Shown in pieces: positions 47,588 to 49,413 of a stretch of 64,000 nucleotides of DNA (its first letter is position 1; the number at the start of each line of letters is the position of its first letter). A program made the position numbers and the translations under genes. The notes under the pieces were generated by a model, which worked only from the letters and a program-made list of their open reading frames with translations, was not told where the DNA came from and made no database searches. Source of the stretch: Sediminispirochaeta smaragdinae DSM 11293 (GTDB lineage Bacteria; Spirochaetota; Spirochaetia; DSM-16054; Sediminispirochaetaceae); the NCBI RefSeq assembly GCF_000143985.1, contig NC_014364.1, forward strand, positions 2,232,001-2,296,000, read 5' to 3'.

Positions 47588-48421
47588 CTATTTCCTGTTC
47601 AACTCCATCCATCTGACCGAATAATCTACTAATTCTTTTTGTCGAATTAATCTTGAATTAGCCGACCCTATCAAGCCGATTTTGATGGGATTCTCCTTTT
47701 CATATGACTGGCCTATCGATTCAAAATCATCGCAGTCAAATGCTATATCATGATAAGCCTTCCAGACCCGCCTGCCTTTTTCCATAACCGGAGCATATTC
47801 GAGAACCTCTTCTTTCCCGCTGTAGTCGGCTTTATACTCTGCCAGGTGAAAAGATGTATTATTCATGTAATCAACGCCGAGCAAGAGAATATATCCATCC
47901 AACTCGTATAGCCTTCCTATGGGACTTTTCTCATTCATTTGGTAATCAAGATGATTATCCTGAATCAGGTATGTATTGTTTTTTCCCCAGGCAGCAAAAG
48001 ACGCATTCGGATGAGAACTCCTTATGACCCCTTTTTGCTTTCTGAACGTTTCGGGAATGATTCCCATGCCTCGTGTGGGGGTAAGAGCCGGATCGAATGC
48101 AGGCATCTCAGCCCTGATTGTATCCCACCACGCCTCAGGGACAGCAGGGTTTCCCCAATTTTTCGGATCAGATAAGTCGCCTGAATGGGTAGGCATGAGC
48201 AGCGTTCCTGTTTTTCCTAAAACCTTTTCCAAGGCAAGAATGACACTTACGGCTCCACCGCATACCCACCCTATCGAACTCAGAGAGGAATGAACAAGAA
48301 CTGTCATGCCGCTCTGTACCCCAAGTTTTCTCAAATCAGATATCAGGCTTGTAATAGTATGGGGCCTTTCTTCTGTTGCGTTTATGGTGTCTTTTTCAGA
48401 CAAATCATCCTCCAATTGCAT
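47588..48421 (-). CDS. AAC(3)-type aminoglycoside N3-acetyltransferase
   Basis: A 277-residue antibiotic acetyltransferase. VHSSLSSIGWVCGG (about 43-56), LMPTHSGD (about 78), TRGMGIIPETFR and RSSHPNASFAAWG (about 130) are the family's conserved blocks, including the active-site His. Members use acetyl-CoA to acetylate aminoglycosides at the 3-amino group, but many chromosomal copies have other or unknown substrates. It diverges from a MarR-GNAT gene. Confidence 0.88.
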   Translation of the reverse strand: MQLEDDLSEKDTINATEERPHTITSLISDLRKLGVQSGMTVLVHSSLSSIGWVCGGAVSVILALEKVLGKTGTLLMPTHSGDLSDPKNWGNPAVPEAWWDTIRAEMPAFDPALTPTRGMGIIPETFRKQKGVIRSSHPNASFAAWGKNNTYLIQDNHLDYQMNEKSPIGRLYELDGYILLLGVDYMNNTSFHLAEYKADYSGKEEVLEYAPVMEKGRRVWKAYHDIAFDCDDFESIGQSYEKENPIKIGLIGSANSRLIRQKELVDYSVRWMELNRK

Positions 48422-48504
48422 AGTAAATGAAGCCAGTTGTTATGTTCTTTTGTGTTTTACAACTTCGTTTATGTTATCACAAAAAAAAATCAACAGAAAG
48501 TGTG

Positions 48505-48536
48505 TTGACATGTACTATATTGCTGACTATAGTCAG
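48505..48536 (+). promoter_or_regulatory. Consensus promoter with a palindromic operator over the -10
   Basis: TTGACA (48505-48510) and TATAGT (48528-48533) are 17 bp apart. A perfect 14-bp palindrome, CTGACTATAGTCAG (48523-48536), covers the -10. The ATG at 48541 lies 7 nt after the -10, so transcription probably starts at the ATG. A MarR-type protein is encoded next, so autorepression is likely. Confidence 0.85.
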
Positions 48537-48540
48537 ATAT

Positions 48541-49413
48541 ATGAATGATATTTCTATTGTTAGGAAGTTCAACAGAACTGTTACGCAAAGGATTGGTGTA
48601 CTTGATGCCCAGTTTCTGGGAAGGCACAGGTCCCTTGGTGCTTCTCGGTTACTGTATGAAATCGGCATATCAGGTGCAGAAGTTAGAGACTTGCGTAGCC
48701 GCCTCGGTCTCGATTCCGGCTATATGAGTCGCTTACTGCGTACGTTAGAGGCCGAAGGTTTGATAATGCTGCGTCCCTCTCCGAATGATTCGCGGGTACG
48801 AACTGCCTCGCTGACAAAAGATGGTGAGCGAGAATTGAAGCGGCTTGATGTGCTTTCGGATGAGGCTGCAGCTTTCATATTGGAACCCTTGTCAGAAAAA
48901 CAGCGTCGTAGGCTACTTGAAGGGATGGAGATTGTTGAAAGGATGCTGACTGCTGGATTGATTGTCATGGAAGTGGTGCCGCCTGAAAGCCGCGATGCAC
49001 GCTTATGTATTGAAAGCTATTTTACGGAACTTAACGATCGTTTTGAAAATGGATTTGATCCCGGTGATAGTATCTCGGCAAGTGATAATGAGTTAACGCC
49101 GCCAAACGGATATTTTGTTGTCGCACGGATTCACGATGAAGCCATAGGGTGTGGTGCGATCAAATGCTATCCCGACCATGGTGAAATCAAACGTATGTGG
49201 GTAGCAAAGACATGTAGAGGTCTTGGAGCGGGCCGGAAGATACTCGGCTATCTGGAACAGATAGCTCGGGAGAATCATATACCGTTGTTACGGCTGGAGA
49301 CGAACAAGGTATTGACGGAAGCACAGGCAATGTACAGAAGTAGCGGCTATGAGGAGGTGGTAGCATTTAATAATGAACGCTATGCCCATCACTGGTTTCA
49401 GAAGTATATTTGA
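48541..49413 (+). CDS. MarR-GNAT fusion regulator/acetyltransferase
   Basis: A 290-residue two-domain protein. The N-terminal MarR winged helix (GASRLLYEIG, GLDSGYMSRLLRTLEAEGLI, RPSPNDSRVRTASLTKDGE) spans about 1-145. The C-terminal GNAT domain (IGCGAIKCYPDHGEIKRMWV, RGLGAGRKILGYLE, YRSSGYEEV) follows. No ribosome site precedes the ATG, in line with a leaderless message. This is a known fusion class with few defined roles. It diverges from the AAC(3) gene. Confidence 0.9.
   Translation: MNDISIVRKFNRTVTQRIGVLDAQFLGRHRSLGASRLLYEIGISGAEVRDLRSRLGLDSGYMSRLLRTLEAEGLIMLRPSPNDSRVRTASLTKDGERELKRLDVLSDEAAAFILEPLSEKQRRRLLEGMEIVERMLTAGLIVMEVVPPESRDARLCIESYFTELNDRFENGFDPGDSISASDNELTPPNGYFVVARIHDEAIGCGAIKCYPDHGEIKRMWVAKTCRGLGAGRKILGYLEQIARENHIPLLRLETNKVLTEAQAMYRSSGYEEVVAFNNERYAHHWFQKYI

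Follow-up and report, generated by a model that had tools for sequence, protein, structure and literature searches.

The window, the whole 64,000-nucleotide stretch that we analysed from the 4,653,970-bp, single-contig genome of Sediminispirochaeta smaragdinae DSM 11293, contains a gene in which a MarR-type regulator is fused to a GNAT-type acetyltransferase. A promoter, a palindrome and the start codon lie close together at the head of this gene, and a divergent AAC(3)-like gene lies on the other strand. The features that matter here are as follows.

47588 to 48403, minus strand: divergent AAC(3)-like gene (PF02522, E 1e-93); its longest ORF reaches 48421
48505 to 48510, plus strand: -35 hexamer, TTGACA
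48523 to 48536, no strand: candidate operator palindrome CTGACTATAGTCAG, which covers the -10
48528 to 48533, plus strand: -10 hexamer, TATAGT
48540 to 48541, plus strand: predicted transcription start, at the ATG or 1 nt before it
48541 to 49413, plus strand: MarR–GNAT fusion gene, 290 aa (Pfam: MarR at residues 34–85, GNAT at residues 160–270)

Profiles recognised both halves of the fusion: PF12802 (36.1 bits, cut-off 27) and PF01047 (32.9 bits, cut-off 24.6) matched the MarR-type winged helix, and PF00583 (56.6 bits, cut-off 20.7) matched the GNAT domain. A fold search placed the GNAT half on structure 3lod (Z 20.8, 1.8 A over 140 residues); this search used the whole fusion protein, and GNAT chains filled its match list. 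In the protein model (pLDDT 86) the first helix occupies residues 3–17, meaning that the ATG at 48541 gives a complete N-terminal helix, and a putative recognition helix occupies residues 59–71. Both the same genome (G000:C1:2493976-2494434, L020) and a congeneric sister species, G001 (L021), also have a stand-alone GNAT gene with 42% identity to the GNAT half of the fusion.

The -35 and -10 hexamers match the consensus at 11 of 12 positions with a 17-nt spacer (TTGACA-17-TATAGT, 48505–48533), bearing out the near-perfect sigma-70 promoter claimed in an earlier, sequence-only reading of this DNA. That reading had also described a perfect 14-bp palindrome over the -10 and an ATG 7 nt past it without a ribosome-binding site, and both descriptions hold: CTGACTATAGTCAG is a perfect palindrome whose centre is no more than 1 bp from that of the -10, and exactly 7 nt separate the -10 from the ATG. 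No Shine–Dalgarno sequence was found upstream of this ATG, where anti-Shine–Dalgarno pairing was +0.4 kcal/mol against a mean of -1.9 for random 30-mers; pairing of -4 kcal/mol or better at a nearby start was seen for 36 of the 50 long ORFs in the window. From the position of the -10, the gap between palindrome and ATG and the missing Shine–Dalgarno sequence, we infer the transcription start listed above. Another inverted repeat, TCAACA-n7-TGTTGA (window 48490–48509), lies upstream of the -35 and overlaps it; this repeat is not conserved in G001.

Neither the palindrome nor the promoter is significant alone, since both kinds of element occur at chance level: the window holds four perfect 14-bp palindromes against 4.4 in shuffles, and the 2.4 kb scanned for promoter-like sites holds five against 4.6 expected. 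The excess over chance is the conservation among relatives, not the palindrome or the promoter singly.

Our homologue sample is one scan of genome contigs plus a plasmid collection; nine full-length relatives came from the one genome scan and the rest from plasmids, at 39–59% identity. The subfamily so defined has 24 loci, the one in the window and 23 others (39–91% identity), and spans Spirochaetota, Gemmatimonadota, Chloroflexota, Actinomycetota and Pseudomonadota; these relatives, about 20 in number, are not independent samples. The closest, from G001, has 91% protein identity, and its -35, -10, palindrome and ATG are identical to those of the window, with a 48-bp indel just upstream. The palindrome or a recognisable version of it, matching at least 9 of the 12 fixed positions of the family consensus CTGACTNNAGTCAG, is present in 24 of 24 loci, and 21 of the 24 match at least 11 positions. 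The search before homologues that had been proposed as a check therefore returned the same palindrome in the same place in all 23 other subfamily loci.

The distance from palindrome to ATG is similarly constrained. Across 23 reading frames, a count that omits the remnant L066 and takes the second of two tandem palindromes for L055, the gap is 3–5 nt in 22; the exception is L053, with a gap of 0, or of 21 nt if the annotated start is used. In 12 of the frames an in-frame stop falls inside or just after the palindrome, so a start further upstream is excluded there. Members with a 3-nt gap (L030, L035, L036, L048–L050, L052 and L058) use the TAA or TAG of the -10 inside the palindrome as the in-frame stop before the start, meaning that three signals overlap. 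L055 carries tandem palindromes, CTGATCTAAGTCAG and CAGACCAAGGTCAG (L055:1947-1988), of which the second is 4 nt from the ATG. On a Streptomyces plasmid, L066 (1452-1728) retains the operator before a broken-frame MarR–GNAT fragment over which no gene is annotated; this fragment is a decaying copy.

The palindrome contains promoter signals that face the gene. The half-sites CTGAC and GTCAG are almost invariant in 22 loci, and the centre between them is asymmetric: A7, the second base of the -10, is present in 15 of 22 loci and its palindromic partner T8 in 4, with 12 loci having only A7 and one only T8 (sign test p 0.002, uncorrected for relatedness). Inside the palindrome, TANNNT faces the gene in 14 of 22 loci and points the opposite way in 3 of 22; the -10 departs from TANNNT in 8 of the 22. 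For the 14 non-actinobacterial loci, the best TTGAC-like -35 at a spacing of 16–18 nt scored a mean of 4.14 of 6 against 2.41 for shuffled sequence (0 of 5000 as good), and none was seen in the actinobacterial members. The -10 usually precedes the ATG by 6–8 nt, which places the transcription start at the ATG, and Shine–Dalgarno pairing over the subfamily averages -1.7 kcal/mol, the random level.

We found the palindrome to be largely private to these genes. Across the 163 kb of DNA surrounding the relatives, sites with up to two mismatches lie almost all at starts of subfamily genes; matches elsewhere in that DNA (L032, L038, L050/L058 and L063) each have at least two departures from the consensus half-site pair. 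Stand-alone GNAT relatives had no copy at their gene starts and were rejected as carriers of the motif, L038 having one two-mismatch match elsewhere. Within the source genome, CTGACTATAGTCAG at 48523–48536 is the only intergenic copy; the four further CTGACnnnnGTCAG sites are all inside reading frames, so no regulon was seen and a regulon in the same genome was rejected. Control appears to be restricted to the MarR–GNAT gene itself.

The two most divergent operators, each matching 9 of 12 positions, are those of L037 (TTGACGGTAGTCAA) and L057 (CTGACACGCGGCAG), and the recognition helices of L037 and L057 are also the most divergent (IDKAQLSRGL and IDSAALARHL, compared with LDSG[YL]xSRxLR in the family). 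Operator and helix diverge together, as expected if the recognition helix reads the palindrome; this joint divergence and the conservation of the palindrome both support the prediction that a MarR dimer binds the palindrome in its own promoter. Distant MarR–GNATs (22–28% identity, L059–L065), which are carried by plasmids from Bacillota and Alphaproteobacteria, have the same domain order, and several have palindromes of the type TTGAC-n3/4-GTCAA further upstream; real Shine–Dalgarno sequences precede L060, L063, L064 and L065. L060, L063 and L064 combine two such palindromes with a strong Shine–Dalgarno sequence, the same theme in a leadered arrangement. The tree splits the leaderless subfamily from these distant proteins with 100/100 support and, as they differ in arrangement and are separate in the tree, the compact arrangement is a property of one clade.

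We propose that the MarR–GNAT gene is a one-gene, negatively autoregulated unit, a reading to which we give a probability of roughly 0.8. The MarR half would bind as a dimer to CTGACTATAGTCAG on the -10 box, blocking RNA polymerase; on sensing a ligand, perhaps the amine substrate of the GNAT half, it would release the DNA. Transcription would then begin at the ATG or within 1 nt of it, producing a leaderless mRNA that ribosomes would start from its 5′-terminal AUG. Acetylation of the inducer by the GNAT half is plausible. The core of the sequence-only reading, a putative operator on the -10 and a leaderless start within about 35–40 bp, is strongly supported by the recurrence of the palindrome at the same place in homologues.

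The same reading had raised the possibility of control of the divergent AAC(3)-like gene by this operator, but our analysis lends it no support. TTG 48403, which follows GGAGG, is the probable start of the AAC(3)-like gene, because the ATG at 48421 that opens its longest ORF is missing in G001. Both species of the genus retain the divergent arrangement, and a weak minus-strand promoter (9/12, 48572–48545) would initiate beside the operator; however, promoter-like matches of this kind are at chance level, the AAC(3) start is 120 bp away and the spacing changes by 48 bp in G001, making joint repression of the two genes unlikely. No annotated relative has an AAC(3) neighbour, and a conserved AAC(3) partnership was rejected.

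Other explanations concern the palindrome itself. Somewhat less probable again than a shared operator is that the palindrome is an operator but that transcription begins at a promoter further upstream, giving the mRNA a conventional leader that lacks a Shine–Dalgarno sequence. Such leaders occur in many bacteria, and in the window the reading frame stays open upstream of the ATG, yet it is the gene-facing -35 and -10 that are conserved at the right spacing, no conserved promoter was recognised upstream, and the 48-bp indel of the sister species lies just upstream. We consider it very improbable that the palindrome acts as RNA, with a hairpin CUGAC-UAUA-GUCAG beside the AUG controlling translation: a stem of 5 bp could form, and pairs 1–5 are nearly always complementary, but these pairs are nearly invariant in sequence too, as expected for a protein site, while the sixth base pair and the oriented TA in the ‘loop’ follow the -10 box, and the palindrome would be absent from a leaderless RNA. 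Chance placement of a palindrome on a promoter, with which the number of perfect palindromes in the window agrees, is refuted by the recurrence of this palindrome in the corresponding position at the 23 other loci, which span five phyla.

The autoregulated gene seems to have travelled. Among 393 genomes of the phylum it is present in only two congeners; the nearest relative found beyond the congener is gemmatimonadotal, with 59% identity, and several relatives are plasmid-borne. No relative was found in phage records or viral contigs. The simplest reading of this distribution is that the gene was acquired horizontally together with its control region, and the same packing into about 40 bases before related genes in five phyla suggests a compact, self-controlled unit moving between bacteria. 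More tentatively, and with the balance somewhat against it, the unit may be portable because it is independent of its host: because its promoter and operator are merged with the start codon and it can do without a ribosome-binding site, it would function on arrival in any phylum, and this self-sufficiency would have kept the operator unchanged. One gene of about 0.9 kb would, on the same account, bring sensor, switch and detoxifying enzyme with it.

Leaderless translation is usually rare outside a few phyla, and the MarR–GNAT subfamily offers a case in which it appears to have stayed with a single gene in five phyla. The idea that genes survive horizontal transfer better when their messages are leaderless could readily be tested with this gene. 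A candidate operator, CTGACTNNAGTCAG, can now be assigned, testably, to a widespread MarR–GNAT subfamily and, once the ligand is found, the region could serve in biosensors as a very short promoter switched by that ligand. Our search of the open-access literature found no description of MarR–GNAT fusions, of this subfamily or of the palindrome, and the fusion family with its operator appears to be undescribed.

The leaderless, autorepressed design is itself already known, from acuR, lambda cI and Tn1721 tetR. In the acuR-acuI-dddL operon of Rhodobacter sphaeroides, 5′ RACE placed the leaderless mRNA exactly at the ATG of the TetR-type regulator AcuR, which represses its own gene through an inverted repeat overlapping the -35/-10 promoter (TAATAGAC-n6-GTCTATTA), has acrylate as its ligand and retains this arrangement in diverse bacteria (PMC3017554). 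The MarR–GNAT gene resembles acuR in having a predicted operator that overlaps the promoter of the regulator’s own, apparently leaderless gene in a conserved arrangement, a likeness drawn here from sequence and its conservation; it differs in belonging to the MarR family and in fusing regulator and enzyme, which are separate genes in the acuR operon. CvkR, a MerR-type repressor of type V-K CAST, is likewise encoded on mobile DNA, with a leaderless mRNA and a palindromic operator at promoters (PMC9938897), but it represses cas12k and tnsB and has no enzyme domain. Lambda cI (from PRM) and Tn1721 tetR are cited in those two papers (PMC3017554, PMC9938897) as mobile-DNA genes for DNA-binding repressors with leaderless mRNAs. 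Both repressors, unlike MarR–GNAT, belong to other protein families. The operators of lambda cI and Tn1721 tetR serve divergent promoters. TA-led leaderless genes, which have TANNNT about 10–12 bp before the start codon and no Shine–Dalgarno sequence (Zheng et al. 2011; PMC3160421), share both the spacing and the absence with the MarR–GNAT gene, but form a general class without an operator on the -10. The MarR–GNAT gene stands apart from the known leaderless repressors in that its regulator belongs to the MarR family, one protein combines regulator and enzyme, and the palindrome lies on the -10.
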